Origin: Caloramator sp. E03
GTDB lineage: Bacteria; Bacillota; Clostridia; Clostridiales; Caloramatoraceae
Reading direction: 5' to 3'
NCBI RefSeq assembly: GCF_006016075.1
Contig: NZ_CP040093.1
Span: 2,025,501-2,089,500, forward strand
DNA: 64,000 nucleotides
Positions 22,409-41,157 of the stretch are shown in pieces. Numbering within the stretch: position 1 is the first letter of the stretch; each line of letters begins with the position of its first letter. The position numbers were made by a program, and so were the translations under genes. Under the pieces are notes generated by a model that saw nothing but the letters and a program-made list of their open reading frames with translations, made no database searches and had not been told where the DNA came from.

Positions 22409-22484
22409 ATATTATAAAAAAAAATTATATTTAATATTTCTTGAAATTTTATAATAATTATAATTGAAGATAAAATTCAAAATA

Positions 22485-22520
22485 TTACAAAGAAAGTACG
22501 CCATTTAACTTTCTTTGTAA
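22485..22520 (+). promoter_or_regulatory. Stem-loop in the mglB leader
   Basis: A 13-bp perfect inverted repeat (TTACAAAGAAAGT at 22485-22497 and its complement at 22508-22520) with a 10-nt spacer, 28 nt before mglB. No T-run follows, so it is more likely a regulator binding site or an mRNA-stabilising 5' hairpin than a terminator. Confidence 0.5.
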
Positions 22521-22548
22521 TAAATAAATCTAATGAGGGGGTTTTTTT

Positions 22549-23607
22549 ATGAAAAAAGCAGGTTTGGCGCTGCTTATCACAACTTTATTATTATCAACTG
22601 CTTTTGCAGGATGTGGCAGTAAACAGTCATCAGGAACTTCATCATCAGGTACATCATCAAACAACACTCCAGCAAAACCAACTATTGGAGTTGCAATTTA
22701 TAAGTTTGATGACACATTCATGACTGGAGTTAGGAATAACATATCAAAAGCTGCTGGAGATAGTGCAGTTGTAGATATAGTTGACTGTCAGAACTCACAG
22801 CCAACACAAAATGATAAAGTTGACCTGTTTATTACAAAGAAATACAATGCACTTGCAATTAATCCGGTTGATCGTACTACAGCTGGCGTATTAATTGAAA
22901 AAGCTCAAAAGGCTAACATACCAGTTGTATTTTTCAACCGTGAACCATTACCTGAGGATATGAAAAAATGGGACAAGGTATATTATGTAGGAGCAAAGGC
23001 AGAACAATCAGGAACTCTTCAAGGTGAATTAGTTGTTGATTATTGGAAATCACATCCTGAAGCAGATAAAAACAAAGATGGTAAAATGCAGTATGTTATG
23101 TTAAAAGGTGAGCCAGGACATCAGGATGCAGAACTTCGTACAAAGTATTCAATACAGGCTGTTCAAGACGCAGGAATACAAGTTGAAAAGTTAGCAGAAG
23201 ACACTGGTATGTGGGATCGTGTAAAGGGACAGGAAAAGATGGCTGCATTCCTTGCATCATTAGGAGATAAGATAGAAGTTGTTTTTGCAAATAACGATGA
23301 TATGGCACTTGGAGCTATTGAAGCATTAAAGGCTGCTGGATATTTTAAAAATGGTAAATATATGCCTGTAGTTGGTGTTGATGCAACTGCTCCTGGACTT
23401 GAAGCTTTAAAAGATGGTACAATGCTTGGAACTGTTTTAAACGATGCAAAGAACCAAGGTATAGCTACATTTAAATTAGCCTATGTACTTTCACAGGGAC
23501 AAACTCCAAGTAAAGAAAATACTGGATATGAAATAACTGATGGAAAATATGTATGGATTCCTTATGTAAAGATTACAAAAGACAATATCAGTGATGCACA
23601 GCAATAA
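22549..23607 (+). CDS. mglB: Galactose/glucose ABC transporter substrate-binding lipoprotein (MglB)
   Basis: 352 residues. A lipoprotein signal (LLLSTAFAGC) and a Ser/Thr-rich linker precede a Peripla_BP_4 domain close to MglB: IGVAIYKFDDTFMTGVRNNI, NPVDRTTAGVLIEKAQ, IPVVFFNREP, EDTGMWDRVKGQEKM, VFANNDDMALGAIEAL, VVGVDATAPGLEAL. Asp and Asn residues in NNDDMA and DATA correspond to hexose and calcium sites in enteric MglB. It delivers galactose or glucose to MglC/MglA. A hairpin lies between this gene and mglA, typical where the binding protein is made in excess. Confidence 0.92.
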   Translation: MKKAGLALLITTLLLSTAFAGCGSKQSSGTSSSGTSSNNTPAKPTIGVAIYKFDDTFMTGVRNNISKAAGDSAVVDIVDCQNSQPTQNDKVDLFITKKYNALAINPVDRTTAGVLIEKAQKANIPVVFFNREPLPEDMKKWDKVYYVGAKAEQSGTLQGELVVDYWKSHPEADKNKDGKMQYVMLKGEPGHQDAELRTKYSIQAVQDAGIQVEKLAEDTGMWDRVKGQEKMAAFLASLGDKIEVVFANNDDMALGAIEALKAAGYFKNGKYMPVVGVDATAPGLEALKDGTMLGTVLNDAKNQGIATFKLAYVLSQGQTPSKENTGYEITDGKYVWIPYVKITKDNISDAQQ

Positions 23608-23625
23608 GGTTTAATATGTTTGTTT

Positions 23626-23658
23626 TAAGGGAGTAATGAATTTTCCATTGCTCCCTTA
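23626..23658 (+). terminator. Intercistronic hairpin between mglB and mglA
   Basis: A 13-bp stem (23626-23638 with 23646-23658, one G-U pair) and 7-nt loop, 19 nt after mglB. The tail is only TATTCC, so partial termination or 3'-end protection is likely, giving more MglB than MglA. Confidence 0.6.
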
Positions 23659-23705
23659 TATTCCAAAAATTTTTGGACAGAAAAACACGCAGGGAGGTAG
23701 TAATA

Positions 23706-25223
23706 GTGGAAAACAAAGAATTCATACTTGAAATGAGGAATATTTCTAAAGAATTTCCCGGCGTAAAGGCACTTGATAATGTAACATTGCAAGTACGCCC
23801 TGGCACTGTTCATGCTCTTATGGGTGAAAATGGTGCAGGGAAATCAACGCTAATGAAATGTTTATTTGGAATATATAGACCAGATGCAGGCGAGATAATA
23901 CTTGATGGAAAAAAGGTAGATATTAAGGATTCAAAAACAGCTCTTGATTTAGGTATTTCTATGATACATCAGGAACTTCACCCAGTGCCCTATAGAAATG
24001 TTATGGAAAATATTTGGCTTGGACGTTTCCCCATAAAAAAATATGGGTTTATGAAAATTATTAATAATAAAAAGATGTATCAAGATACAGTTAACCTATT
24101 TAAAAATCTTAATATGAATATAGATCCAAATACAATAGTCGGAACAATGTCGGTTTCAAAGGTACAATCTATGGAAATAGCAAAGGCTGTTTCCTATAGC
24201 TCAAAGATTATAATAATGGATGAGCCTACTTCTTCTTTAACTGAAAATGAGGTTGAAGGTTTATTTGAAATAATAAGGAATCTTAAGAAAAGAGGAGTAT
24301 CTATAATTTATATAACCCATAAGATAGATGAGGTTTTAAAGATAGCTGATGAAGTTACTATAATGAGAGATGGAAAGAAAGTAGGATGCTGGCAGGCTAA
24401 TGAGCTTACAAATGATATGATAATATCTAAGATGGTAGGAAGAGAACTTACAAATATATTCCCAAAAAGAAATAATGTTCCGGGGAATGTAGTTTTAAAG
24501 GTAGAGAATCTTACCTCTCCTTTGCCAAAATCTTTTAAGGATGTTTCCTTTGAACTTAGGGAAGGTGAGATACTTGGTATAGGAGGATTAGTTGGTGCCC
24601 AGCGTACTGAACTTGTAGAAGCTATATTTGGTTTGCGCAGCATTTCGTCAGGGAAAATTTATATAAGAGGCAAGGAGATAGATATAAAATCACCAATTCA
24701 TGCTAAAAAGAACGGAATGGCTCTTTTAACTGAAGAAAGAAGAGTAACTGGAATATTTCCGATGTTAAGTGTTTTGGAGAATACAGTTATAGCTAATTTA
24801 AAGGAATATAGAAATCCTAATTTGTTGTTAAATGAAAAGAAAATAAGAGAGGATGTGGAAAAAAGCATTGAGATGCTTAAAATAAAAACACCTTCCTATA
24901 GAACGTTTATAAAAAATCTATCCGGTGGAAATCAGCAGAAGGTTTTGTTTGCAAGGTGGCTTCTTACAACGCCAGATATATTAATACTCGATGAACCTAC
25001 AAGAGGTATAGATGTTGGAGCTAAATATGAAATATATACTATAATTGCAGAACTTGCAAAACAGGGAAAAAGCATAATAATGATATCTTCCGAAATGCCA
25101 GAGCTTATAGGTATGTCTGATAGAATTATGGTAATGTGCGAAGGGCGATTGTCTGGAATAATTGAAGGTAATGGGGCAACAGAAGAAGAGATAATGCGCC
25201 TTGCTACTAAGTTTATAGCATAG
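23706..25223 (+). CDS. mglA: Galactose/methyl-galactoside ABC transporter ATP-binding protein MglA
   Basis: 505 residues starting at GTG 23706, 6 nt after GGGAGGTAG; the upstream in-frame codon at 23673 lacks a site. Two ABC ATPase domains in tandem: first with GENGAGKSTLMK, SVSKVQSMEIAKA and IIMDEPTSSL; second with a degenerate Walker A (GLVGAQRTEL), LSGGNQQKV and ILDEPTRGIDVG. This asymmetry is normal for CUT2 sugar transporters. It is the energy-coupling subunit on the inner face of the membrane. Tightly followed by mglC. Confidence 0.95.
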   Translation: MENKEFILEMRNISKEFPGVKALDNVTLQVRPGTVHALMGENGAGKSTLMKCLFGIYRPDAGEIILDGKKVDIKDSKTALDLGISMIHQELHPVPYRNVMENIWLGRFPIKKYGFMKIINNKKMYQDTVNLFKNLNMNIDPNTIVGTMSVSKVQSMEIAKAVSYSSKIIIMDEPTSSLTENEVEGLFEIIRNLKKRGVSIIYITHKIDEVLKIADEVTIMRDGKKVGCWQANELTNDMIISKMVGRELTNIFPKRNNVPGNVVLKVENLTSPLPKSFKDVSFELREGEILGIGGLVGAQRTELVEAIFGLRSISSGKIYIRGKEIDIKSPIHAKKNGMALLTEERRVTGIFPMLSVLENTVIANLKEYRNPNLLLNEKKIREDVEKSIEMLKIKTPSYRTFIKNLSGGNQQKVLFARWLLTTPDILILDEPTRGIDVGAKYEIYTIIAELAKQGKSIIMISSEMPELIGMSDRIMVMCEGRLSGIIEGNGATEEEIMRLATKFIA

Positions 25224-25237
25224 GAAGGGGATTGAAA

Positions 25238-26242
25238 ATGGTTAATGAGAAAATGAAAAAATTTATCAATTTTATTTCTCAAAATGTTATATATTTGTTC
25301 TTGTTATTGCTTATAATAGTAATTGCTTTTATAAATCCTGACTTTTTATCACTAACATGTCTAAGAGATATTTTGCTTCAGTGTTCAACAAGGGTTATAA
25401 TTGCAGTAGGTATGTTTTGCATACTTCTTACAGGAGGAGTTGACCTTGGTGCAGGTCGTGTAATAGGTCTTACAGCTGTCCTTTCGGCTTCAATGCTTCA
25501 AAATGCTGACTATGCAAGAAGGTTTTATCCAAATCTTCCACACCTTCCACTTTGGCTTCCTATAATAATTTCTTTAGTTGCAGGAGTTATTGTTGGAATG
25601 CTCAATGGTCTTATTATTTCAAAGTTTAGTGTTCCTCCTTTTATAGCAACCTTAGGAACACAGGTAATTGTATATGGTATTACTTCTATATATTTTGATT
25701 TACCACCTAATAGTTCACAGCCAATAGGTGGATTAAGAAAGGACTTTACATTTTTAGGATCAGGCTCTGTTGGGGCTGTGCCTATAATAGTTATATTGGC
25801 AATAGCTATTGCTGCCTTTGCATGGGTTGTATTTAATAAAACTTGCTTTGGTAAAAATACCTATGCTATAGGTGGAAATAGACAGGCTGCTGAAGTATCT
25901 GGAATAAATGTTAAAAGGACACTTTTTACAATATATACAGTAGCTTCATTATGTTTTGCATTTGCTGGAGTCTTAGAAGCTGCAAGAACAGGTGGTGCAA
26001 CGAATAACTACGGCTTTATGTATGAGTTTGATGCTATTGCAGCATGCTTTGTTGGAGGAGTATCGACAACTGGAGGAATAGGTACTATACCAGGGGTATT
26101 AGCCGGAGTTTTGATATTTGGAGTTATAAACTATGGATTGACCTTTATAGGCATAAATCCATATTGGCAGTATATTTTAAAGGGTATAGTTATAGTTGTT
26201 GCAGTAGCCTTTGACATGAGAAAATATATTGCTAAAAAATAA
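25238..26242 (+). CDS. mglC: Galactose/methyl-galactoside ABC transporter permease MglC
   Basis: 334 residues from ATG 25238 (GGAAGGGG 7 nt upstream). A polytopic membrane protein of the BPD_transp_2 family with 8-10 hydrophobic segments, and the family blocks GVDLGAGRVIGLTAV, LGTQVIVYGI, AIGGNRQAAEVSGINV and FVGGVSTTGGIGTIPGV. It forms the channel with MglA and receives sugar from MglB. Last gene of the mgl operon. Confidence 0.94.
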   Translation: MVNEKMKKFINFISQNVIYLFLLLLIIVIAFINPDFLSLTCLRDILLQCSTRVIIAVGMFCILLTGGVDLGAGRVIGLTAVLSASMLQNADYARRFYPNLPHLPLWLPIIISLVAGVIVGMLNGLIISKFSVPPFIATLGTQVIVYGITSIYFDLPPNSSQPIGGLRKDFTFLGSGSVGAVPIIVILAIAIAAFAWVVFNKTCFGKNTYAIGGNRQAAEVSGINVKRTLFTIYTVASLCFAFAGVLEAARTGGATNNYGFMYEFDAIAACFVGGVSTTGGIGTIPGVLAGVLIFGVINYGLTFIGINPYWQYILKGIVIVVAVAFDMRKYIAKK

Positions 26243-26257
26243 ATGCTTTATTTGATT

Positions 26258-26296
26258 GATAGCCTTTAAGATAATGTCTTAAAGGCTATCTTTATA
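26258..26296 (+). terminator. Terminator after mglC
   Basis: A perfect 14-bp stem (26258-26271 with 26277-26290), TAATG loop, then TTTATAAAA. Confidence 0.8.
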
Positions 26297-26360
26297 AAAT
26301 ATAAAATGGGGAAACTCTTTATGGTTATGTAATTGAAAATTTATAAACAGCAAAGAATAT

Positions 26361-27371
<1,011 letters not shown>

Positions 27372-27394
27372 TTAACCTATTTGATAAATGGTTG

Positions 27395-27431
27395 TAAAAA
27401 AACAGACCTCAATAATGGGGTGAGAGTCTGT
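27395..27431 (-). terminator. Terminator in the ilvC leader, similar to the leu T-box terminator
   Basis: Reading the minus strand, ACAGACTCTC pairs with GAGGTCTGT (9 bp, one bulge) and is followed by a run of seven T. It lies between the likely ilvC promoter and the gene. It matches the terminator of the leu T-box (27890-27927) almost base for base, including the CCCCAT loop segment, which in a T-box is the antiterminator's 3' strand. Confidence 0.75.
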
Positions 27432-27494
27432 AAATACTCTGAATTAATAATTTTGCATTTTATTTAATAAATTTAAATTTATATATTATTTTTT

Positions 27495-27523
27495 ATTCTA
27501 TTAGTACATTTGCGACTTGTCAA
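27495..27523 (-). promoter_or_regulatory. Sigma-A promoter of ilvC
   Basis: On the minus strand TTGACA (27518-27523), 17-nt spacer, TAGAAT (27495-27500). The predicted start near 27488 gives a leader of about 130 nt, too short for a full T-box. Confidence 0.7.
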
Positions 27524-27590
27524 TAATTTTTAATATTTTTTAAAATTGAAATAAACCTATTAAAAAAAATCAATTTTTTAAAAAAGGATA

Positions 27591-27620
27591 TTGACAAAAT
27601 CATTTTGAATAAAGTATATT
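27591..27620 (+). promoter_or_regulatory. Sigma-A promoter of the leu-ilv operon
   Basis: TTGACA (27591-27596), 18-nt spacer, TATATT (27615-27620). It lies about 90 nt before the first conserved T-box element. Confidence 0.75.
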
Positions 27621-27709
27621 ATTAATCAATATATATTTATAAAGCAATTAAATGACGGAACAATAAAATTAAATTTCATATAATGAAATAAAATAAGATA
27701 TTTATATGT

Positions 27710-27928
27710 AAAAGCAATGAGAGGGATAAGTAAACATCATAGTGCTTTACAGAGAGTGGGAGATGGTGAAAACCCATAAGTATTAGATGTTGAAACTCAC
27801 CCTTAAGCTGCAGGCTGAAATCTATATGAAAGTAGGCTGTGCCGGCAAGTGCCGTTATTTGAATGAGAAAAAAATGGGTGGTACCGCGAACAGACTTCTC
27901 GCCCCATGGGAGAGGTCTGTTTTTTTAT
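27710..27928 (+). promoter_or_regulatory. T-box riboswitch, leucine-specific (specifier CTC)
   Basis: A canonical T-box leader. Stem I carries AGTA near 27730, AGAGAG (27751-27756) and GGTG; the specifier context GAAACTCACC places CTC (Leu) at 27796-27798. The T-box sequence TGGGTGGTACCGCG lies at 27875-27888 and would pair with the uncharged tRNA end. The terminator has arms 27890-27900 and 27910-27920 and a T-run; CCCCAT in its loop can pair with ATGGG of the T-box to form the antiterminator. Uncharged tRNA-Leu should therefore switch on the leu genes. Confidence 0.95.
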
Positions 27929-27989
27929 ACTCAAAATAAGAAATTTAAATATTAAAAATTTTAAAATTAATAAAAAGGAGGTGAATTGT

Positions 27990-28160
27990 ATGAATAATTA
28001 TTACAATGAACAGGAAAGGATGTCTTTAAATGAAGTTGCTTTAGATAAGAACAATGTAATAAACGAAATGGAAGGATTATATTTTGAATATCTTTTTGAA
28101 ATTAAAAATAAAGAAAATTGTCAAGACTCTGATTTCTGCGTTGCTTTTATGACAGTATGA
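27990..28160 (+). CDS. Small protein of unknown function in the leu operon
   Basis: 56 residues from ATG 27990 with a strong AAAGGAGGTG ribosome site 7 nt upstream. It is acidic, with no membrane segment and no recognised domain; two cysteines sit near the C-terminus (ENCQDSDFCVAFMTV). It lies between the T-box terminator and a second hairpin before leuA, so it is expressed only when leucyl-tRNA is scarce. It is not a classical leucine attenuator peptide, since it has few Leu codons. It could be a small regulator or a translated leader; function unknown. Confidence 0.6.
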   Translation: MNNYYNEQERMSLNEVALDKNNVINEMEGLYFEYLFEIKNKENCQDSDFCVAFMTV

Positions 28161-28169
28161 TAAGTGGAT

Positions 28170-28205
28170 TATAAGTTTTACAGCCTTTAGGTTGTAAAAC
28201 TTATA
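28170..28205 (+). promoter_or_regulatory. Stem-loop between the small ORF and leuA
   Basis: A 16-bp stem (28170-28185 with 28190-28205, one G-U pair) and TTTA loop. No T-run follows directly, so mRNA processing, stabilisation or partial termination is more likely than full termination. Confidence 0.55.
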
Positions 28206-28232
28206 AATACATACTTTTTAAGGAGGATGTGA

Positions 28233-29747
28233 ATGGCAAGGAATGTGTATATTTTTGATACAACACTAAGAGACGGCGAACAAACTCCTGGAGTCAGTTT
28301 AAATGTTCAAGAGAAACTTGAAATTGCAAAACAACTTCAAAGTTTAGGAGTTGACGTTATAGAAGCTGGTTTCCCATTTGCTTCAAAAGGCGATTTTGAA
28401 GCAGTAAAGGCAATAGCAAAGAATATAAAAGGGCCTGTAATTGCAGCACTTGCAAGGGCAACAAAACAAGACATTGACTGTGCTTGGGATGCGATTAAGT
28501 ATTCAGATAAGCCAAGAATTCATACGTTTATAGCAACATCAGACATACACATGAAATATAAATTAAATATGTCAAAGGAAGAAGTTTTAAGTAGGGCAGT
28601 AGAGATGGTATCCTATGCAAAATCTTTAGGTGCAAGTGTTGAGTTTTCACCAGAGGATGCAACGAGATCACAAAAGGAGTTTTTATATGAGGTTTTAGAG
28701 GTTGTTATTGATGCAGGTGCTGATGTTGTAAACATACCTGATACAGTTGGATATGCTACTCCAATTGAATTTGGCAAGTTTATTATGGGTATAAAGGAAA
28801 ATGTAAAAAACATAGACAAGGCAATAATTAGTGTACACTGCCATAATGATTTGGGACTAGCTGTTGCAAATTCTCTTGCAGCTATTGAAAACGGGGCACA
28901 GCAGATTGAATGTGCAATAAATGGTTTAGGTGAAAGGGCAGGGAATGCTGCACTTGAAGAAATTGTTATGGCACTTAAAACAAGATATAACTATTACAAT
29001 TGTAAAACAAATGTTGTTACAGAACAAATTACAACAGTTAGCAATTTGGTTAGTCATATTACAGGAGTTCATGTACAACCTAATAAGGCCATTGTAGGTG
29101 CCAATGCATTTGCACATGAATCAGGGATACATCAGCATGGTGTTTTAAACAATAGAGAAACTTATGAAATAATGACTCCTGAATCTGTAGGGCTTAAAAA
29201 GAGTTTAATGGTTCTTGGAAAACATTCAGGGCGTCATGCTTTTGAAGAAAGATTAAAGGAGCTTGGTTATACAAACCTATCTGTGGATAGAATAAATGAA
29301 GCCTTCCAAAAGTTTAAGGATTTAGCAGACAAGAAAAAATATGTTTCAGATATGGATATAGAAGCAATAGTAAGGCATGAAGTATACCAAGTTCCAGAGG
29401 TATTTACATTAGAATTATTTCAAATATCCAGTGGAAACAACTTAGAATCTACATCAACAGTAAAAATAAAATATAAAGACGAAAGCATTAAAGAAGCTGC
29501 CTGTGGAGATGGGCCTGTAGATGCAGTATTTAAAGCAATAGAAAAAGCAACAGGAATAGAAGTAAAACTTGAAGATTATTCTTTAAAGGCAATAGGAAGT
29601 GGCAAAGATGCACTAGGTGAAGCCACTGTAAAGATTAAAAAAGATGATAAAGTTTATGTTGGGACAGGAATTAGTACAGACGTTATAGAGGCAAGTGCAA
29701 GAGCATTAATTAATGCTATAAATAAAATTCATTATGAAATAAATTAA
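28233..29747 (+). CDS. leuA: 2-isopropylmalate synthase
   Basis: 504 residues. Condenses 2-ketoisovalerate with acetyl-CoA, the first step of leucine synthesis. The HMGL-like TIM barrel begins with [16 protein letters not shown] (metal-binding Asp and catalytic Arg), with [14 protein letters not shown] (metal His pair) and [10 protein letters not shown]. The linker and the C-terminal LeuA allosteric domain (about 390-500) that binds leucine for feedback inhibition are present. First large gene behind the leucine T-box. Confidence 0.95.
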
Positions 29748-29772
29748 AGGAGTGATGTTAGATGGGAATTTA

Positions 29773-31335
29773 ATGAACAAAGTATTTATTTATGACACCA
29801 CTTTAAGAGATGGGGCACAGGGTGAAGGAATTTCTTTTACTGTGGAAGATAAGCTAAAGATAACTAAAAAACTTGATGATTTTGGAATTAGCTACATTGA
29901 AGCTGGTAACCCAGGTTCAAATCCAAAGGATATGGAGTTTTTCAAAAAGGTTAAGGAATTAAATTTAAAAAATGCAAAGTTAGTTGCCTTTGGAAGTACA
30001 AGAAGAGCCAATATAAATCCAGAGGAAGATCAAAATTTAGCTTCAATTTTAAAAGCTGAAACATCGGCTGTGGCTATATTTGGTAAGAGCTGGGATTTGC
30101 ATGTTACTGAGGTTTTAAGAACAACACTGGAAGAAAACTTGAATATGATTAAGGATACAATAGTTTACATGAAGCAAAAAGGTAAAGAGGTAATATTTGA
30201 TGCAGAGCATTTCTTTGATGGATATAAGAATAATCCAGAATATGCATTTAAGGTTTTAGAGGTTGCACAAGAAGCCGGGGCGGATTGGCTTGTACTTTGT
30301 GATACAAATGGAGGGACACTTCCTTCTAAGATAGGAGAAATAGTGAAAAGGGTTAGTAGGGAATATAATGTTCCTGTGGGGATACACTGCCACAATGATA
30401 CAGGAATGGCAGTTGCAAGTTCAATAGTTGCAGTTGAAAATGGGGCGCTGCAAGTTCAAGGAACTATAAATGGATATGGGGAAAGATGTGGAAATGCAAA
30501 TCTATGTACTGTTATACCTAATATACAGTTTAAATTAGGTATAAAGTGTGTACCAGATGAGAACTTAAAGGAACTAACAGCGATGTCCAGATATATTAGT
30601 GAACTTTCTAATATGTCCCATGATAAGCAATTTCCTTATGTTGGAAGCAGTGCCTTTGCCCATAAGGCAGGCATGCATATAGATGCTGTATTAAAAAATA
30701 CGGTCTCATTTGAACATATATCACCTGAGATAGTTGGAAATCAAAGAAGAGTACTTATGTCTGAAGTGTCAGGAAAAAGTACGATAGTTTCAAAAATACA
30801 AAAGGTTGCACCTTGGATAAATAAGAATTCACAAGAAGTACAAAGGCTTGTTGATGAGCTTAAAAATCTCGAATATCAAGGATACCAATTTGAAGGTGCA
30901 GAAAGTTCTTTTGAGCTTTTAGTAAGAAGAACATTAGGTATGACAACAAACTTTTTTAATATAAAGGATTTTAGAGTGATTTGTGAGGAACCATCAAGTG
31001 AATTAAATAGTGCATTTGCAATAATTAAAGTAGAAGTTGATGGTATAGAAGAAGTTACAGCAGCAGAAGGGGATGGACCTGTAAATGCAATGGATACGGC
31101 ATTAAGAAAGGCATTGACAGTGTTTTATCCCGAACTTTCAAATATGAGGCTTGCTGATTATAAGGTTCGTGTACTTGATACAACTCAAGCAACGGCAGCC
31201 AAAGTTAGGGTTCATATTGAATCTACAGATGGAGAAACTTCATGGGGAACTGTTGGAGTTTCAACAAATATAGTTAAAGCAAGCTGGATAGCATTAATTG
31301 ATTCAATCGAATATTTTTTACACAAACGAAGATAA
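29773..31335 (+). CDS. cimA: (R)-citramalate synthase
   Basis: About 520 residues from ATG 29773, giving the family start [19 protein letters not shown]. In-frame GTG 29752 and ATG 29755 lie on or just after the AAAGGAG site, so the true start is uncertain by seven codons. It belongs to the CimA branch: [61 protein letters not shown] and a C-terminal LeuA-type allosteric domain. CimA condenses pyruvate with acetyl-CoA for threonine-independent isoleucine synthesis; downstream steps can use LeuCD and LeuB, encoded next. The close relatives homocitrate synthase and LeuA are less likely given the FDAEHFFDG signature. Confidence 0.9.
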
Positions 31336-31380
31336 AATTAAATTTACATAAAGAAACTAACGAGAGGAGAGATGAACACC

Positions 31381-32649
31381 ATGGGAATGACCATGACACA
31401 GAAAATATTAGCAGCCCATGCAGGGTTAGATAGTGTAAAGGCTGGCGATTTAATAAAGGTAAAATTAGATTTAGTATTGGGAAATGATGTTACAACACCA
31501 GTTGCAGTAAAGGAGTTTAGGAAAATAGGTATTGATAAGGTATTTGATAAAAAGAAAATAGCAATTGTACCTGATCACTTTACTCCAAATAAGGATATTA
31601 AATCTGCTGAGCAATGTAAATTTATAAGAGAGTTTGCTTATGAAATGGAAATTGAAAATTATTTTGAAATAGGTGAAATGGGAATTGAACATGCACTAAT
31701 TCCTGAAAAGGGACTTGTTGTATGTGGAGATGTTGTAATAGGAGCAGACTCACACACCTGTACTTATGGTGCATTAGGTGCCTTCTCAACGGGGGTTGGA
31801 AGTACTGATATGGCAGCAGGCATGGCTACAGGCGAAGCCTGGATGAAGGTTCCTGAGGCTATAAAGTTTGTACTTAAGGGAAAATTAAATCCATGGGTAA
31901 GTGGTAAAGACGTTATTCTACACATTATAGGTATGATAGGTGTTGATGGAGCACTTTATCAATCTATGGAATTTACAGGAGAAGGGCTTGCAAGCCTTTC
32001 AATGGATGATAGATTTTCAATGGCAAACATGGCTATAGAAGCAGGAGCTAAAAACGGAATATTTGAAGTAGATGAAAAGACAATAGAGTATGTAAAGGAG
32101 CATTCAACAAAACCTTATGCAATTTATAAGGCTGATGAAGATGCTGAATACACAAGGGTTATTGAAATTGATTTATCACAGATTAAATCAACTGTAGCAT
32201 TCCCTCATCTTCCAGAAAATACTCGTACAATAGATGAAGTTGGAGATGTTGCAATTGACCAGGTTGTTATAGGTTCTTGTACAAATGGAAGAATAGAAGA
32301 TTTAAGAATAGCAGCAAAGGTATTAAAGGGTAAAAAGGTTAATAAGAGAGTTAGGGTAATTATCTTCCCTGCAACTCAAAAGATTTATATGCAAGCATTA
32401 AAAGAAGGATTAATTGAAACATTTATAGAAGCAGGTGCAGTTGTAAGTACACCAACTTGCGGACCTTGCCTTGGTGGACACATGGGTATACTTGCAAAGG
32501 GTGAAAGAGCACTTGCAACAACGAATAGAAACTTTGTTGGAAGAATGGGGCATCCAGAAAGTGAAGTTTATTTATGTAGCCCAGCTGTTGCAGCAGCTTC
32601 AGCAATTACAGGTAAAATAACATCACCAGAGGAGGTAGCAACATGGTAA
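31381..32649 (+). CDS. leuC: 3-isopropylmalate dehydratase large subunit
   Basis: About 422 residues from ATG 31381 ([15 protein letters not shown], the usual family start); the ATG at 31372 lies only 2 nt from the AGGAG site. Aconitase-type enzyme with a 4Fe-4S cluster whose ligand cysteines are in the GSCTNGR segment and in [36 protein letters not shown] is the family signature. With LeuD it isomerises 2- to 3-isopropylmalate, and it probably also acts on citramalate. Overlaps leuD by 7 nt. Confidence 0.95.
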
Positions 32650-33134
32650 AGGGTAGAGTCATAAAATACGGAGATAACATAGATACAGACGTAATCATTC
32701 CTGCAAGATACTTAAATACAAGTGACCCAAAGGAGCTTGCTATGCATTGTATGGAGGATTTGGACAAGGATTTTGTTAATAAAGTTAGACAAGGAGATAT
32801 AATGGTTGCAGGTAAAAACTTTGGTTGCGGATCATCAAGAGAACATGCACCACTTTCAATTAAGGCTTCAGGAATTAGCTGTATTATAGCAGAGACCTTT
32901 GCAAGAATTTTCTATAGAAATGCTATAAATATAGGCCTTCCAATTATGGAGTGTCCAGAGGCTGCAAAGGATATAGAAAATGGAGATGAAGTATCAATTG
33001 ATTTTAATACAGGTGTTATTACAAACATTACAAAAAATAAGACATATAAGGCAGTCCCATTCCCAGAATTTATGCAGGGTATTATAAATGCTGGTGGACT
33101 TATAAATTATGTAGCAAAGGAAGTGAGAAAGTAA
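32643..33134 (+). CDS. leuD: 3-isopropylmalate dehydratase small subunit
   Basis: 163 residues, the swivelling domain of the aconitase fold. [15 protein letters not shown] at the N-terminus and [14 protein letters not shown] match the small subunit of the HacB/LeuD type. ATG overlaps the end of leuC and the stop overlaps the leuB start (TAATG), indicating translational coupling for equal amounts of the two subunits. Confidence 0.95.
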
Positions 33135-34201
33135 TGAGAATAGCACTTTTACCTGGTGATGGTATAGGAAAGGATATAGTAAAACAAGCTGTTAAGGTAT
33201 TAGATGCTGTAGGTAAAAAATATAATTGTGTATTTGAATATAAAGAGGCATTAATTGGTGGGGAGGCTATAGATAAGGTAGGTACTCCCCTACCCCAAGA
33301 AACTATAGATATATGTAAAGAAAGTGATGCTGTACTTTTAGGGGCAGTAGGAGGTCCAAAGTGGGATAACCTTGCAGGTAATTTAAGACCTGAGGCAGGG
33401 CTTTTAGGAATTAGAAAGGCACTTGGAGTTTATGCAAATTTAAGACCTGCAATAGTGTTTCCTCAACTTAAAGATGCTTCAACTTTAAAGGAAGAAGTAT
33501 TAAAAGATGGAATAGAAATTATGATAGTAAGGGAATTAACAGGTGGCTTATACTTTGGAGAAAAGAAAAGAGTTCAAACAGAAGAAGGACAAAAAGCATG
33601 GGATACAATGGTATATACAGAAAAGGAAATAGATAGAATATCAAGAATGTCCTTTGAAATTGCAAGAAAAAGAAATAGAAAGCTTACACTTGTTGATAAA
33701 TCAAATGTTCTTGAAAGTTCAAGGCTTTGGAGAGAGGTATTTACAAATATTGCTAAGGATTATACAGATGTTGCTGTTGATTATATGTATGTAGATAATG
33801 CAGCTATGCAGCTTGTTAGAAACCCGAAACAATTTGATGTAATACTTACTGAAAATACATTTGGAGATATTTTAAGTGATGAGGCTGCTATGCTTACAGG
33901 TTCACTTGGAATGCTTCCTTCTGCAAGTTTAGGTGATGGAAAAGTAGGGCTTTATGAGCCTATACACGGTTCAGCACCTGATATTGCAGGACAAAATAAA
34001 GCTAATCCTATAGCTACTATAATGAGTGTTGCTATGATGTTAAGGTATAGCTTTAATATGTTAGATGCAGCGGATGATATAGAAAAGGCTATTGTAACTA
34101 TATTAGATAAAGGATATCGTACCCTTGATATCATGCAAGAGGGCATGACTGCTGTAGGTACAGAAGAAATGGGGGACCTTATAGCAGGTGAAATAAAATA
34201 G
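33134..34201 (+). CDS. leuB: 3-isopropylmalate dehydrogenase
   Basis: 355 residues. Oxidises and decarboxylates 3-isopropylmalate to 2-ketoisocaproate with NAD, and probably 3-methylmalate in the citramalate route. [10 protein letters not shown] at the N-terminus, substrate loop [35 protein letters not shown], and the metal site [26 protein letters not shown] are present. The NAD-type [18 protein letters not shown] ends the family pattern. Directly coupled to leuD. Confidence 0.96.
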
Positions 34202-34221
34202 TTATGATTGGGGGAGAATAA

Positions 34222-35829
34222 ATGAAGGCTGCAGATGCTATTGTGCAGTGCTTTGTAGAGGAAGGTATTAGTGTTATATTTGGTTATCCTGGTGCTTCCG
34301 TAATTCCTTTATATGAGTCCCTAAGAAAATCAAATATAAAGCATATACTTGTTAGACATGAGCAAGCCGCAGGCCATTGTGCCAGCGGTTTTGCAAGAAC
34401 TACAGGCACAGTAGGAGTATGTATAGTAACATCAGGACCTGGTGCAACAAATTTAATTACTGCAATTGCAACTGCATATATGGATTCTATTCCTATTGTA
34501 GCCATTACAGGACAAGTAAAATCAACTCTAATTGGTAAAGATGTATTTCAAGAGGTTGATATAGTAGGTGCAACTGCTCCTTTTGTAAAGCACAATTATC
34601 TTGTTAAAAATGCAAATGATATACCAAGAATTTTTAAAGAAGCATTTTATATAGCAAGAACAGGCAGGCCAGGCCCTGTTTTAATAGATATTCCAATGGA
34701 CATTCAAAATGAAGATATAGATTTTTCATATCCTGAAACTGTAAATATTAGAGGATATAAGCCTAAAACTTTTGGGCATAAGGGACAGATAAAAAGAGCA
34801 CTTGAGAGATTAAAAAATAGCAAAAAGCCTCTTATATGTGCAGGTGGAGGAGTTGTTTCGGCTAAGGCAGAAGAGGAACTTAGAGAATTTGTTAAAAAGT
34901 CAAAAATACCTGTTGTGCATACACTTATGGGTAAAGATGCAATAGAATATGATAATCCATATTATATAGGTCTTATAGGAACACATGGAGAAAAACATGC
35001 AAACAGAGCTGTTACAGGAGCAGATGTTTTAATATTAATAGGAACAAGAGCAGCAGATAGAGCAACATCAGGTTCTAAGTTCTTTGCAAAGGATGCGGAT
35101 ATTATACACATAGATATAGATCCTGCAGAAATAGGGAAAAATTTAGAATCATTAATTCCTGTTGTTGGAGATGCAAAATTTGTAATTAGAGAATTGATAG
35201 AGGGTATAGATGAAATAGATACAAGTGAGTGGTTAAATGAAATAAATAGTTGGAAAGAGGAATTAAGCTGCGAATCTGAAGATATATATGTAAATCCCAA
35301 ATATGCTATAAAACAAATTTCAGATTTGGTAGAAGATGATGCTATATTGGTAGCTGATGTTGGGCAGAATCAATTTTGGGCGGCACATAATTTTAAAATA
35401 AAAGGAAACAGGAGGTTTATTACATCAGGTGGATTAGGCACAATGGGATATTCAATCCCGGCTGCAGTAGGAGCAAAATTTGGTACCCCTCAAAGAAGAG
35501 TTATTGCAGTTATGGGTGATGGTAGCTTTCAAATGAGCTCTAATGAGCTTGGGACAATAGCAGAAAATAATATAAATATAATAATGGTATTGATGAATAA
35601 TTCTGGACTTGGTATGGTAAGAGAAATTCAAAATAAAACTTATAAAGTGAGTTATGGTGTTGAACTTAATGCAAATCCCGATTTTGTTGGAATTGCAAAG
35701 GCTTATGGATTACAAGGCAGGAAAGTCACATCTAATAATCAATTCAAAGAGGCATTTTTGGAGGCTATGAAGTCAGATAAGGCATATTTAATAGAGTGTA
35801 TTGTTAACCCTAAAGAGAGTACGCTTTAA
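34222..35829 (+). CDS. ilvB: Acetolactate synthase, large (catalytic) subunit
   Basis: 535 residues, slightly short for biosynthetic enzymes (about 560). Thiamine-diphosphate enzyme joining two pyruvates, or pyruvate and 2-ketobutyrate. The N-terminal domain has the catalytic Glu in RHEQAAGHCASGFAR; FQEVDIVGAT and the FAD/central domain follow; the ThDP-binding motif runs from GDGSF (about 434) to NNSGLGM. Its regulatory subunit ilvN follows after 12 nt, supporting the anabolic rather than catabolic type. Confidence 0.95.
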   Translation: MKAADAIVQCFVEEGISVIFGYPGASVIPLYESLRKSNIKHILVRHEQAAGHCASGFARTTGTVGVCIVTSGPGATNLITAIATAYMDSIPIVAITGQVKSTLIGKDVFQEVDIVGATAPFVKHNYLVKNANDIPRIFKEAFYIARTGRPGPVLIDIPMDIQNEDIDFSYPETVNIRGYKPKTFGHKGQIKRALERLKNSKKPLICAGGGVVSAKAEEELREFVKKSKIPVVHTLMGKDAIEYDNPYYIGLIGTHGEKHANRAVTGADVLILIGTRAADRATSGSKFFAKDADIIHIDIDPAEIGKNLESLIPVVGDAKFVIRELIEGIDEIDTSEWLNEINSWKEELSCESEDIYVNPKYAIKQISDLVEDDAILVADVGQNQFWAAHNFKIKGNRRFITSGGLGTMGYSIPAAVGAKFGTPQRRVIAVMGDGSFQMSSNELGTIAENNINIIMVLMNNSGLGMVREIQNKTYKVSYGVELNANPDFVGIAKAYGLQGRKVTSNNQFKEAFLEAMKSDKAYLIECIVNPKESTL

Positions 35830-35841
35830 GGGGGGATAAAT

Positions 35842-36330
35842 ATTAGCAGGCATATATTATCAGTATTAGTTGAAAACCATTCAGGAGTATTGAGTAAGAT
35901 AGCAGGACTATTCAGCAGGAGAGGATATAATATAGACAGCTTAACAGTTGGTATTACAGAGGATCCTACAATATCACGAATGACTATTGTTGTAAGAGGA
36001 GACGATTATATATTAGAACAAATCACGAAACAATTAAATAAATTGGTTGATGTTATTAAAATAATAGAACTTGATCCTTCAAAATCAGTATACAGGGAGC
36101 TGGCTTTAGTTAAAGTTTCATGTTTACCTAATAATAGGTCTCTTATTACTGAAACTGTTAACATATTTAGAGGGAATATAGTTGATATTAACAATAAGAG
36201 CATGACTATTGAAGTAACAGGGGATGATGAGAAAATTACAGCATTTATTGAACTTATGAAGCCCTATGGAATTAGGGAGATTATAAGAACAGGGCTTACA
36301 GCATTAGAGAGAGGTAATAAATGTATATAA
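35842..36330 (+). CDS. ilvN: Acetolactate synthase, small (regulatory) subunit, AUU start
   Basis: About 162 residues if translation begins at ATT 35842. This codon sits about 6 nt after AAGGGGGGA and exactly where family members have Met: the text then reads (M)SRHILSVLVENHSGVLSKIAGLFSRRGYNIDSLTVG, the first ACT-domain strand and helix. No ATG, GTG or TTG occurs in frame until TTG 35890, which would cut off the first strand and has no ribosome site. The second domain (VSCLPNNRSLITETVNIFRG) and the ending TGLTALERG are normal. IlvN binds valine for feedback inhibition and stimulates IlvB. A sequencing error turning ATG to ATT is the alternative. Confidence 0.88.
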   Translation: MSRHILSVLVENHSGVLSKIAGLFSRRGYNIDSLTVGITEDPTISRMTIVVRGDDYILEQITKQLNKLVDVIKIIELDPSKSVYRELALVKVSCLPNNRSLITETVNIFRGNIVDINNKSMTIEVTGDDEKITAFIELMKPYGIREIIRTGLTALERGNKCI

Positions 36331-36363
36331 AAAACAAATGCATATTTGATGCATTTGTTTTTT
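36329..36363 (+). terminator. Terminator of the leu-ilv operon
   Basis: A perfect 15-bp stem (36329-36343 with 36349-36363) and ATTTG loop, with the right arm ending in a run of T. The left arm starts at the stop codon of ilvN. Confidence 0.85.
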
Positions 36364-36408
36364 CTGTGATATGGATTATTAAAAATTTTTAAAAACATTC
36401 AAAAAATA

Positions 36409-36462
36409 TTGACAATTAATGCAATTAAAATTATACTATTACTTAAGATAAACGATTAACTT
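36409..36462 (+). promoter_or_regulatory. Promoter and putative operator of the allose regulator gene
   Basis: TTGACA (36409-36414), 17-nt spacer, TATACT (36432-36437). Just downstream, AAGATAAACGATTAACTT (36445-36462) is an imperfect palindrome sharing CGATTAAC with the perfect operator at 37478-37503. Its position after the -10 box suits repression of the regulator's own gene. Confidence 0.65.
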
Positions 36463-36472
36463 GGAGGATGAA

Positions 36473-37468
36473 ATGAAAAATAATATCTCTATAAAAGAAA
36501 TAGCTAAATTATGTAATGTTTCCACTGCAACTGTATCAAAAGTATTGAACAATAAAGGAAGATTTTCTGAAGAAACCAGACAAAAGGTGCTTGAGGTTGT
36601 TAAAAAATATAATTATCAAACTAATATGGTTGCCAAAAGTTTAAGAACAAATAAATCACAAATAATAGGAGTAATTGTTCCTGATATTATTAATGAATTT
36701 TTTGCATGTATTATAAAATCTATTGAAAGCTATTTTTTTCCTCATGGTTATTCAGTTTTTATTTGTAATACTGATGAAGATGTGGATAAAGAAAAAGAAT
36801 ATCTAAGGCAGTTTGAAGCAAAAGGTGTTGATGGCATTATATATATTTCTGGTAAATCGGGAAATATTACCAATACGATTAAAAGAGATATACCAATTGT
36901 ATGTATTGATAGAAAGCCATCTGGTAAAAGTGATATTGTAACTATTGAATCAGATAATCGAATGGGTGGATATCTTGCCACAGAAGAGCTAATTAGAAAG
37001 GGATGTAGAAATATAGCTGTATTGAAAGATTATCGTGATTTGTCTACTACTAAACATCGTTTTAAAGGCTATCAGGATGCTCTTTTAAGATACAATATTA
37101 ATTTTAATGCAAAACTTATTAAAAATATTAAAGTAGATTTTAATTCCGCAAGAATCGCTGTTTTAGAGTTGATTGATAGCGGTATTAATTTTGATGGAAT
37201 TTTTGCATTCACAGATTGGCTGGCGTTAGGAGCATTGACAGCATTAAAAGAAAGAAAAATTAAAGTTCCAGATCAGATTAAAATTGTCGGATTTGATAAT
37301 ATATCAACTTCTCAATATAGTTATCCTTCAATAACAACAATAAATCAAGATAAGGAAATGATAGGTCAAACAGCTGCAAATATACTTCTAAACCTTATAA
37401 ATAAAGAATATAATAAAGTTAGCAATATTGTAATTCCTGTTAGCTTGGTTGTTAGAGAAACGACATAA
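36473..37468 (+). CDS. LacI-family transcriptional regulator of the allose operon
   Basis: 331 residues from ATG 36473 (GGAGG 5 nt upstream). An N-terminal LacI helix-turn-helix (SIKEIAKLCNVSTATVSKVLNN) with the hinge segment, then a periplasmic-binding-protein-like sensor domain (IIGVIVPDIINEFFACI, VDGIIYISG, IPIVCIDRKPSG, FDGIFAFTDWLALGAL, IKIVGFDNISTSQYSYPSITTINQD). In E. coli the allose operon is controlled by an RpiR-type AlsR; here a LacI-type protein takes that place, so I do not use the name alsR. The effector is probably D-allose or a phosphorylated derivative. Confidence 0.9.
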   Translation: MKNNISIKEIAKLCNVSTATVSKVLNNKGRFSEETRQKVLEVVKKYNYQTNMVAKSLRTNKSQIIGVIVPDIINEFFACIIKSIESYFFPHGYSVFICNTDEDVDKEKEYLRQFEAKGVDGIIYISGKSGNITNTIKRDIPIVCIDRKPSGKSDIVTIESDNRMGGYLATEELIRKGCRNIAVLKDYRDLSTTKHRFKGYQDALLRYNINFNAKLIKNIKVDFNSARIAVLELIDSGINFDGIFAFTDWLALGALTALKERKIKVPDQIKIVGFDNISTSQYSYPSITTINQDKEMIGQTAANILLNLINKEYNKVSNIVIPVSLVVRETT

Positions 37469-37477
37469 GTTTTTTTT

Positions 37478-37503
37478 CAAATGGTTAATCGATTAACCAT
37501 TTG
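37478..37503 (+). promoter_or_regulatory. LacI-type operator, perfect 26-bp palindrome
   Basis: The 26 bases are perfectly self-complementary around a central CG between 37490 and 37491; the core is GGTTAATCGATTAACC. A central CG in a symmetrical site is the hallmark of LacI-family operators. It immediately precedes or overlaps the als promoter. Confidence 0.8.
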
Positions 37504-37545
37504 AATGTAATATTTTACCAGTTATTATTTGCTGCATTGCAGCAA
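37501..37545 (+). promoter_or_regulatory. als operon promoter with a second palindrome
   Basis: TTGAAT (37501-37506), 16-nt spacer and TATTAT (37523-37528) form a plausible sigma-A promoter whose -35 box touches the LacI operator. At the start region TTGCTGCATTGCAGCAA (37529-37545) is a second palindrome (8-bp arms, one central base), a possible site for another regulator or a 5' hairpin of the mRNA. Confidence 0.5.
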
Positions 37546-37572
37546 TTAAGATAATAAAAAGGGGGATAAAAA

Positions 37573-38571
37573 ATGAAACATTTCAAAAAACTAACATTAA
37601 TTGCATCAATGATTGTCTTAATTATTTCTTTATTTTCAAGCTGTAGCAAAAAAGAGAGCAGTACTTCAACCCAAAGCACACAGACTCAGCAGCAGACATC
37701 AGATAATGCACAAATTGCTATTGTATTAAAAACACTTTCTAATCCTTTCTGGGTAACAATGAAAGAAGGAATTGAAGCTGAAGCAAAGGCACAAGGCATT
37801 AAAGTTGATATTTTTGCAGCATCATCAGAAGAAGATGTTCAGGAACAGTTAAAACTTGTTGAAAACCTTTTGAACAAAGATTATAAAGCAATAGGAGTTG
37901 CCCCACTATCACCTGTTAATCTTATACCAGCAGTCGTAGAAGCCAACAAAAAAGGTATGTATGTAGTTAACATAGACGAAAAAATTGACATGAATGAATT
38001 AAAGAACGCTGGTGGAAGTGTAATTGCGTTTGTTACTACTGATAACGAAAAAGTTGGTGCAAAGGGTGCACAATATATAGTTGATACATTAGGAGCACAG
38101 GGAGGCGAAGTTGCTATTATTGAAGGAAAAGCAGGCAATGCATCGGGTGAAGCAAGAAAAAAAGGTGCTGCTGGAGTATTTAATTCAAATTCTTTAATAA
38201 AATTAGTTGCAAGTCAGCCAGCTGATTGGGATAGATCAAAAGCATTAGATGTTGCTACTAATATGCTTCAAAGAAATCCGAATATAAAAGCATTCTATTG
38301 CTGTAATGATACAATGGCACTTGGAGTTATGCAAGCTGTCCAAAATGTAGGAAAAGAAGGAAAAATACTTGTTGTAGGAACAGACGGTACACCAGAAGCT
38401 GTACAGGCAGTGAAAGATGGGAAAATGGCAGCAACAGTAGCTCAAGATCCTGCAAAAATTGGTGCTACAAGCTTACAATTATTAATTAAAGCACTCAAAG
38501 ATAAGCCTCAAATATCAGTAGATAAAGAACCCGAATTTATAACAGTAGATTCAAATTTAATTAAGAAATAA
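37573..38571 (+). CDS. alsB: D-allose ABC transporter substrate-binding lipoprotein (AlsB)
   Basis: 332 residues. A lipoprotein signal (ISLFSSC) and Ser/Thr/Gln linker precede a Peripla_BP_4 domain that resembles E. coli AlsB closely: VLKTLSNPFWVTMKEGIE, VDIFAASSEEDVQ, APLSPVNL, VNIDEKIDM, EGKAGNASGEARKKGA, KLVASQPADWDRSKALDVATN, RNPNIKAFYCCNDTMALGV and VGTDG. These blocks contain the allose contacts of the enteric protein. It delivers D-allose (possibly ribose weakly) to AlsC/AlsA. Confidence 0.93.
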   Translation: MKHFKKLTLIASMIVLIISLFSSCSKKESSTSTQSTQTQQQTSDNAQIAIVLKTLSNPFWVTMKEGIEAEAKAQGIKVDIFAASSEEDVQEQLKLVENLLNKDYKAIGVAPLSPVNLIPAVVEANKKGMYVVNIDEKIDMNELKNAGGSVIAFVTTDNEKVGAKGAQYIVDTLGAQGGEVAIIEGKAGNASGEARKKGAAGVFNSNSLIKLVASQPADWDRSKALDVATNMLQRNPNIKAFYCCNDTMALGVMQAVQNVGKEGKILVVGTDGTPEAVQAVKDGKMAATVAQDPAKIGATSLQLLIKALKDKPQISVDKEPEFITVDSNLIKK

Positions 38572-38582
38572 TTATCTTAAAA

Positions 38583-38625
38583 CATGGCCTTGATGTTGCA
38601 TAATGTAGATAATGTCAAGGCCATG
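38583..38625 (+). terminator. Intercistronic hairpin between alsB and alsA
   Basis: Stem CATGGCCTTGA/TCAAGGCCATG (38583-38593, 38615-38625), 11 bp, with a 21-nt loop. No T-run follows. It probably lowers expression of the downstream genes relative to alsB or protects the alsB mRNA. Confidence 0.55.
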
Positions 38626-38666
38626 CTATTAAACCAGAAAACAATTAAATAAAAAGAGGTTATGAT

Positions 38667-40196
38667 ATGAAATATTTAGTAGAAATGAGAGGTATTACAA
38701 AAAAATTCCCAGGAGTAATTGCACTAGATAATATAAATTTTCAGCTTCTTCCAGGAGAGGTACATGTACTGCTTGGAGAAAATGGAGCAGGGAAATCAAC
38801 GTTAATGAAGATATTAAGTGGGGTATATGAACCAACAGAAGGTACTATAATAATCGGTGAAAAAAAGTATACGAAATTGACACCAAAGGATTCAAAAGAA
38901 AATGGTATTGGAATAATATATCAGGAACTAAGCGTAATTAATGAATTATCAATAGAAGAAAATATATTTGTTGGGAAAATACCAACGACTAAAAAATTTG
39001 GCATACCTATTGTTGATTACAGATCAATGAGAAAACAGACTATTAATCTATTATCTAGAATTGGATTGAATAAAAATCCATCTACCCTTTTGAAAGAGTT
39101 GTCAATTTCTGAGAAGCAGCAGGTAGAGATAGCAAAAGCATTATCTTCAAATGCAAAAATACTTATAATGGACGAGCCAACATCTTCACTTACAATTGAG
39201 GAAACAAACAATTTATTTAAAATAATAAGACAACTAAAAGAAGAAGGAGTTGGGATAATATATATATCTCATAAGTTAAAAGAAATAAAAGAAATAGGTG
39301 ATAGAGTTACAATATTGAAAGATGGTACTTATGTAAATACAAAGAATATTAAAGATACCAATGAGGAAGAACTTGTTACCATGATGGTAGGAAGAGAACT
39401 CAAATCAAAGTATCTAAATCCTAAACATAGTTATCACGGAACAGAGGAAATTATATTTGAAGTTAGAAATCTTACAAGGCAGGATAAAAAAGTAAAGAAT
39501 ATAAGCTTTAAACTTCATAGGGGAGAAATATTAGGCTTTGCAGGGTTGATTGGGTCTGGGAGAAGCGAACTAATGAATGCTATATTTAGGGCAGACAATA
39601 TAGAATCTGGGGATATATATTTATTCGGTAAAAAGCTAAAATATAAAAATCCATACGAAGCAATAAAAAACAATATTGGGCTCATTACTGAAAACAGAAG
39701 GGAAACAGGCTTTTTTAATAACTTTAGTATTGCAGAAAATATATCTTTAATACCTTTTATTAAAGAATCAAAGGCAGGAGGCATTTTAGGACTTTTAGAT
39801 AAAAATAAAGAAAAGAAGTATGCAGCAGAACAGAAAGAGTATTTAAAAATAAAGTGCACTTCTATAAGTCAAAATATAACTGAGCTTTCAGGTGGAAATC
39901 AACAGAAAGTTATTATAGGAAAATGGCTTGCTGCAAAATCCGATCTTATAATATTTGATGAACCAACTAAAGGAATCGATGTAGGAGCAAAAAGTGAAAT
40001 ATATGCGATAATGAGGGAGCTTGCAAACAATGGCAAAGGCATAATCATGGTATCCTCTGAGCTTCCTGAATTACTTTCTGTATGTGATAGAATTATTGTA
40101 TTCAAGGATGGAGCAATTAGAGCAGTGTTTTCAAGTGATGAGGCAACTGAAGAAAAAATAATTTTTGCTGCTACATCAGAAAAAATTGAGAATTAG
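38667..40196 (+). CDS. alsA: D-allose ABC transporter ATP-binding protein (AlsA)
   Basis: 509 residues with two ABC domains: GENGAGKSTLMK, LSISEKQQVEIAKAL and LIMDEPTSSL in the first; GLIGSGRSEL (degenerate Walker A), LSGGNQQKVIIGKWLA and IIFDEPTKGIDVG in the second. This is the CUT2 layout (RbsA, MglA, AlsA). Assignment to allose follows from alsB, alsE and alsK in the same operon. Followed by alsC after 12 nt. Confidence 0.93.
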   Translation: MKYLVEMRGITKKFPGVIALDNINFQLLPGEVHVLLGENGAGKSTLMKILSGVYEPTEGTIIIGEKKYTKLTPKDSKENGIGIIYQELSVINELSIEENIFVGKIPTTKKFGIPIVDYRSMRKQTINLLSRIGLNKNPSTLLKELSISEKQQVEIAKALSSNAKILIMDEPTSSLTIEETNNLFKIIRQLKEEGVGIIYISHKLKEIKEIGDRVTILKDGTYVNTKNIKDTNEEELVTMMVGRELKSKYLNPKHSYHGTEEIIFEVRNLTRQDKKVKNISFKLHRGEILGFAGLIGSGRSELMNAIFRADNIESGDIYLFGKKLKYKNPYEAIKNNIGLITENRRETGFFNNFSIAENISLIPFIKESKAGGILGLLDKNKEKKYAAEQKEYLKIKCTSISQNITELSGGNQQKVIIGKWLAAKSDLIIFDEPTKGIDVGAKSEIYAIMRELANNGKGIIMVSSELPELLSVCDRIIVFKDGAIRAVFSSDEATEEKIIFAATSEKIEN

Positions 40197-40208
40197 AGGG
40201 GAATAATA

Positions 40209-41153: not shown

Positions 41154-41157
41154 AAAT

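Follow-up and report, generated by a model that had tools for sequence, protein, structure and literature searches.

How is ilvC expressed in Caloramator sp. E03, where the short leader of the gene carries a terminator of the T-box riboswitch type and no recognisable tRNA sensor? In the window, which is the whole stretch of 64,000 nucleotides that was analysed, ilvC lies on the minus strand, divergent from a gene cluster that we take, from the translations, to be leuA-cimA-leuC-leuD-leuB-ilvB. The elements of the locus are as follows.

26361-27356, minus strand: ilvC (ketol-acid reductoisomerase), 331 aa, an intact, stop-free frame
about 27363-27372, minus strand: ilvC ribosome-binding site AGAGGGAGGT, with the ATG at 27356
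27396-27431, minus strand: orphan T-box-type intrinsic terminator ACAGACTCTCACCCCATTATTGAGGTCTGTTTTTTT
27415-27420, minus strand: CCCCAT, what is left of the antiterminator 3' strand, which reads CGCCCCA in relatives with an intact T-box
27423-27440, minus strand: weak alternative hairpin AGAGU/ACUCU, overlapping the 5' arm of the terminator
27432-27494, minus strand: A+T-rich segment, mostly transcribed, with about 57-60 nt from the predicted start to the terminator
27495-27523, minus strand: predicted ilvC promoter TTGACA-17 nt-TAGAAT (11 of 12 consensus matches), with the -35 element TTGACA at 27518-27523 and the -10 element TAGAAT at 27495-27500
27708-27909, plus strand: intact leuA T-box leader (Rfam, 123 bits), with its terminator at about 27890-27924
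28233-29747, plus strand: leuA, the first large gene of the divergent cluster

Transcription of ilvC is predicted to start at about 27488, with a leader of some 130 nt. In the region 26200-28300 one other site equals the promoter with 11 of 12 matches, and the number of promoter-like sites is at the level of chance (nine observed, 10.0 expected in shuffled sequences), so that the promoter scan alone is no proof. The terminator hairpin, ACAGACTCTCACCCCATTATTGAGGTCTGT followed by a U tract, has 10 base pairs, a single bulged U and a loop of 9 nt (CCCCAUUAU). A simple scan of the same region reported no terminator; it missed that of the leuA T-box and, owing to the 9-nt loop and the bulged stem, that of the ilvC leader.

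The initial annotation had likened this terminator to that of the leu T-box, and the comparisons bear this out. The pattern CAGAC..C.CCCC..GAGGTCTG occurs in the genome only in the ilvC leader and in the leuA T-box (reversed control, 0), and a looser pattern adds one further T-box (L276/L021), which precedes a gene presumed from its N-terminus to be ileS. Among the 3' segments of the 26 T-boxes of this genome, that of leuA is most similar to the terminator with its T-tract (score 42), followed by that of L021 (30); the best of 300 shuffles reaches 28 and the best site elsewhere in the window 24. The hairpin by itself scores 30, a value equalled by at least one of 300 shuffles (best 30, mean 15.4). 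This last result, the A+T-richness of the region and the conceivable presence of a hidden promoter within the 39 nt that separate the T-tract from the ATG would suit an unrelated intrinsic terminator resembling a T-box by chance, or an ilvC promoter located downstream of the terminator. Such explanations are, in our judgement, highly improbable. The signature CAGACTN0-3CNCCCCAN2-10GTCTGTTTTT, searched in 225 genomes of the order, gives 25 matches in 17 genomes of six genera (reversed pattern, 0), and a T-box sequence stands directly upstream in 24 of the 25, the ilvC leader of the window being the lone exception; the 24 T-box matches are not independent, as they come from six genera, that of the window among them. 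Together with the pattern search in the genome itself, this makes a chance resemblance very unlikely, and the promoter scan gives no minus-strand site between 27396 and 27357. It had also been claimed that the antiterminator 3' strand is kept, which holds in part: CCCCAT remains, but the conserved CGCCCC has become CACCCC (as in three of the 24 T-box matches), and the terminator has one U fewer in its 5' arm and an altered loop in comparison with those of relatives. The missing U and the CACCCC indicate that the strand is only partly preserved.

The sensing half of a T-box is absent from the leader. No Rfam T-box match at E<=5 is present on either strand of 27340-27700, and the sole Rfam match at cut-off in the window is that on the plus strand before leuA; a minus-strand T-box further upstream of ilvC was likewise sought with Rfam and none was found. 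UGG does not occur in the leader ahead of the 3' arm of the terminator, which leaves no site for binding of NCCA, and no T-box sequence is found within 45 nt upstream of the terminator. Neither stem I nor a specifier codon is found in the approximately 60 nt before the terminator, which give no Rfam match, and the antiterminator 5' strand is missing, AGAGU/ACUCU being the only alternative hairpin. These results agree with the initial annotation, in which no T-box or specifier domain could be fitted into the leader of about 130 nt. The 69-92 nt located 5' of the hairpin show no significant similarity to the T-box leaders of the relatives compared (sets of 2, 18 and 24 leaders): shuffled segments were as good in 175 of 300 and 86 of 300 cases against the two leaders, in 30 of 200 against the 18 and in 10 of 150 against the 24. 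A remnant suggested by eye, GAGTATTT followed by ACAGACT, with the counterpart GAGTAAAAATTT-GGGTGGTACCGCG-ACAGACT in the genome G042, was rejected, since 10 of 150 shuffles and 7 of 83 sliding segments were as good. Because nothing significantly T-box-like is found upstream of the hairpin, an internal deletion, a replacement from the promoter side and copying from leuA are indistinguishable in this segment. Deletion of the sensing half, as proposed earlier, remains the simplest reading, although the upstream segment, with no significant similarity to a T-box, does not demonstrate that one internal deletion took place.

Comparison of the ilvC leaders of related genomes, which had been suggested at the outset, reveals intact T-boxes in the relatives. 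Of the two findings named at the outset as refuting the initial annotation, a minus-strand T-box further upstream and an equally short ancestral leader in related species, neither emerged. Highest in similarity are the ilvC genes of C. caldaquaticum (87% identical; L028, also G138) and its genus mate G042 (85%), two genomes of the same order but of a different family. An intact T-box lies directly 5' of ilvC in both, at L028 2705-2900 with 117.3 bits and, by our reading of the alignment, AUC at the specifier position in C. caldaquaticum, and with 118.7 bits in G042 (L157). In G007, which belongs to the family of the window, ilvC (76%) is preceded by two tandem T-boxes (L112), in the order two T-boxes-ilvC-cimA-leuC-leuD-leuB-ilvB. 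The genes of the window are found on one strand of G042 as Tbox-leuA-Tbox-ilvC-cimA-leuC-leuD, with ilvC placed differently. Two genus mates were searched as well: a single ilvC, of the other type, is present in G001, and G002 is without the gene. When promoter, leader and gene start were compared as DNA with 194 relatives, those of the matches listed that lie outside the own genome covered only the coding part, A+T-rich sequence or the terminator part.

These relatives bear on the possibility that the terminator was copied from the T-box of leuA (or L021) during a rearrangement, in which case no T-box would have been lost from ilvC here. The leuA T-box terminator lies at a distance of about 460 bp and gives the best match in the genome, the segment 5' of the ilvC-leader hairpin holds no significant T-box remnant, and by eye the terminator is about as similar to that of leuA as to the ilvC T-box terminators of relatives. 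The same type of terminator, however, occurs within intact T-boxes at ilvC in the nearest relatives, so that vertical origin is sufficient, and a recent copy would not show the differences from leuA in arms and loop (the missing U, CACCCC and another loop). Copying appears rather unlikely, and vertical descent of the terminator from an ilvC T-box is the origin that we would favour. Some hints of horizontal transfer exist, namely the 87% identity of ilvC across families and the presence of this leuA in only 2 of 17 genomes of the family at E<=1e-120. That the leu cluster was acquired from the group of C. caldaquaticum was considered and is not claimed: leuB is closer to that of G007 (76%, versus 71%), and the ilvC tree, which leaves the branch of the window unplaced, is not decisive.

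A second eroded leader is found in G010, another member of the family of the window. Its ilvC leader (L111/L269) keeps a stem-III-like stretch CGGCAATGCCGTTA, TTTGGG and a terminator and is devoid of the GGTACCGCG core; it gives no Rfam T-box match at E<=10 and is similar to the T-box leader of C. caldaquaticum to a degree reached by none of 200 shuffles. The genes are arranged as ilvC-leuC-leuD-leuB-ilvB, divergent from ilvD (named from its translation) and leuA-cimA, in an assembly that is fragmented (490 contigs, 82% complete, 7% contamination). The G010 leader shares family and gene with that of the window, as well as loss of the core with retention of a terminator; it differs in its recognisable stem-III-like stretch, in UUUGGG, in its terminator sequence and in its place before the ilvC-leuC-leuD-leuB-ilvB genes. 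Core loss with a terminator kept is thus seen in two leaders, with different terminator sequences and through losses that need not be independent. That such decapitated T-boxes represent a recurring evolutionary state, in which the surviving terminator serves as a fixed brake of chosen strength, is a tentative and rather doubtful extension from the window and G010; if true, a gene, or one of two copies, would provide a constant low supply while the others stay under the control of tRNA. Two side observations concern G010: palindromic repeats GGGGCGAACA..TGTTCGCCC lie within its ilvC leader, and its leuA T-box (L269 8344-8754, plus strand) is stretched by insertions and scores only 51.7 bits.

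Across the order, 127 ilvC matches were found in 118 of 184 genomes, nine of which have two; 112 upstream regions were examined together with one from a separate search (113 in total, 13 with starts placed by default position), 15 of lower identity having been left out. By motif and gap, 28 of the 113 regions contain a T-box within the ilvC leader itself. For another 70, an upstream open frame is no more than 130 nt away, with no T-box in between, and these were classed as operon-internal; because any frame of at least 60 codons counts, this class misfiles some, such as L219 (G060), where ilvC is actually divergent, and a T-box is located at a greater distance upstream in some of its members (L109, L110, L113). 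The remaining 15 are free-standing without a T-box, four of them (L199, L206, L207, L210) being probably operon-internal, as they lie 155-161 nt behind a frame. The terminator finder places a terminator within 300 nt in only three of these 15 (the window, G010 and G077), that of G077 (L158) looking unrelated, and a terminator of this kind is absent from some ilvC leaders that have no T-box.

Can the remaining leader still respond to a signal? The initial annotation expected ilvC to be permanently attenuated unless another antiterminator exists, and folding suggests that attenuation would be leaky rather than tight. The terminator has a predicted energy of -10.4 kcal/mol. Hand-bounded terminators of ilvC T-boxes reach -17.3 (C. 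caldaquaticum), -16.0 (G042) and -17.5 kcal/mol (G007), and the leuA T-box terminator of C. caldaquaticum is about as weak as that of the window (-11.1, hand-bounded). With automatic trimming the window hairpin has -9.2, against medians of -16.3 for the 26 T-boxes of the genome and -15.95 for 42 T-box motifs upstream of ilvC, weaker values being found in 3 of the 26 and 4 of the 42; since the trimming shortens some hairpins (L014, L015), the hand-bounded energies are relied on. In the whole leader, the outermost pair of the lower stem has a probability of 0.80 and the other five 0.98-0.995.

A working attenuator of another kind, operated by a leader peptide or by a protein or RNA effector with AGAGU/ACUCU as the antiterminator, has a precedent in the ilvD leader of S. 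aureus, in which the stem I motifs of a T-box are missing and which PMC5794164 interprets as a leader-peptide attenuator rich in Leu and Ile. Minimum free energy folding of the growing transcript does form AGAGU/ACUCU before the terminator; this hairpin is far weaker (-3.9 kcal/mol in a 20-nt fragment) and is displaced once the 3' arm has been made, and the predicted folding of the complete leader is at the level of shuffled sequences (z -0.21). The model thus makes AGAGU/ACUCU a poor candidate antiterminator, and no convincing replacement emerges. The two leaders are alike in belonging to branched-chain amino acid genes, in the lack of stem I motifs and in the presence of a terminator. The S. 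aureus leader has, according to the same paper, a Leu/Ile-rich peptide with a ribosome-binding site, whereas the window leader has neither: no frame there combines a start codon with a Shine-Dalgarno sequence, the only ATG opening MQNY without one, and the leader-peptide candidate was dropped. An attenuator of this other kind is accordingly improbable.

Two further candidates for control were considered. In the folding model, the RNA of the divergent leu T-box is unlikely to act in trans on the leader of ilvC: the co-fold has -39.6 kcal/mol versus -35.2 for the separate RNAs, both terminators are kept, and the intermolecular pairs are A/U runs with no exchange of strands. A CodY gene is present in the genome; the motif AATTTTCWGAAAATT, taken here as the CodY box, occurs with up to three mismatches 14 times in the window against 22.6 expected, and not at all in 22459-41830.

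The reading that we consider probable, on comparison of sequences, is that the ilvC leader is a vestigial T-box that now acts as a constitutive and partly leaky attenuator. An ancestral ilvC leader in the leu/ilv cluster would have possessed a complete T-box reading uncharged tRNA. Stems I-III and the T-box sequence with the antiterminator 5' strand would then have been lost in the lineage in which ilvC is now divergent from leuA, whereas the terminator and the ribosome-binding site would have stayed. As the remnant would neither bind tRNA nor form an antiterminator that matches the terminator in stability, a polymerase that initiates near 27488 should meet the same weakened terminator whatever the supply of leucine or isoleucine, and ilvC would be expressed at a fixed low level through read-through. 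The genome has a second ilvC (69%), located behind a small gene that we take to be ilvN-like and an intact T-box (L025), the specifier position of which we read as AUC (Ile), so that a regulated supply remains and could be provided from this copy; C. caldaquaticum has a single ilvC.

Set beside the T-box riboswitch of the clostridial leu/ile type (RF00230), the window leader shares the terminator, the CCCCA loop, the class of gene and the location found in relatives, and it differs in being without stem I, specifier, stem III, T-box sequence and antiterminator 5' strand. In PMC2494555, T-boxes are described as evolving together with their genes, by duplication and by changes of specificity, and the small number of T-boxes in some streptococci is ascribed to regressive evolution; for histidine genes, PMC9413887 describes how one mode of regulation takes the place of another. 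No report of a T-box reduced to an in-place terminator with its sensor gone was found in searches of open-licence papers. The ilvC leader would be a clear-cut molecular fossil, for which the T-box sequence before 24 of 25 signature matches provides a strong control, and it illustrates a route by which a riboswitch may decay into a constitutive element. For annotators it is a warning not to infer a functioning riboswitch from the presence of an intrinsic terminator between a promoter and its gene.

Several observations were made beside the main question. In the window, the leuA T-box has, by our reading of the alignment, CUC (Leu) at the specifier position, and between this T-box and leuA lie a 56-aa ORF (27990-28160, plus strand) behind AAGGAGGTG and, 3' of the ORF, a 13-bp hairpin at 28173-28202; in C. 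caldaquaticum the gap from T-tract to leuA is only about 30 nt, which leaves no room for such an ORF. The tandem T-boxes of G007 (L271 7929-8461, minus strand) give the specifier readings AUC and then CUA, so that a single leader would respond to the tRNAs of isoleucine and of leucine. G147 has one free-standing ilvC with a T-box-less leader (L159) and a second behind tandem T-boxes (L187). The genus g27 resembles the window in that ilvC is divergent from a T-box-led gene, in all four genomes examined (L263-L266), and has no T-box in its own leader (L225, L227, L250); it differs in that the neighbour is an ilvB-type gene, with two T-box motifs in three of the four genomes, and that the terminator finder gives no terminator in these three ilvC leaders. 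L225, L227 and L250 share TTGACAATT..TTGGTG(T/G)TACGATTTT(T/G)GAAAAGTT, which is possibly an unrecognised regulatory site.
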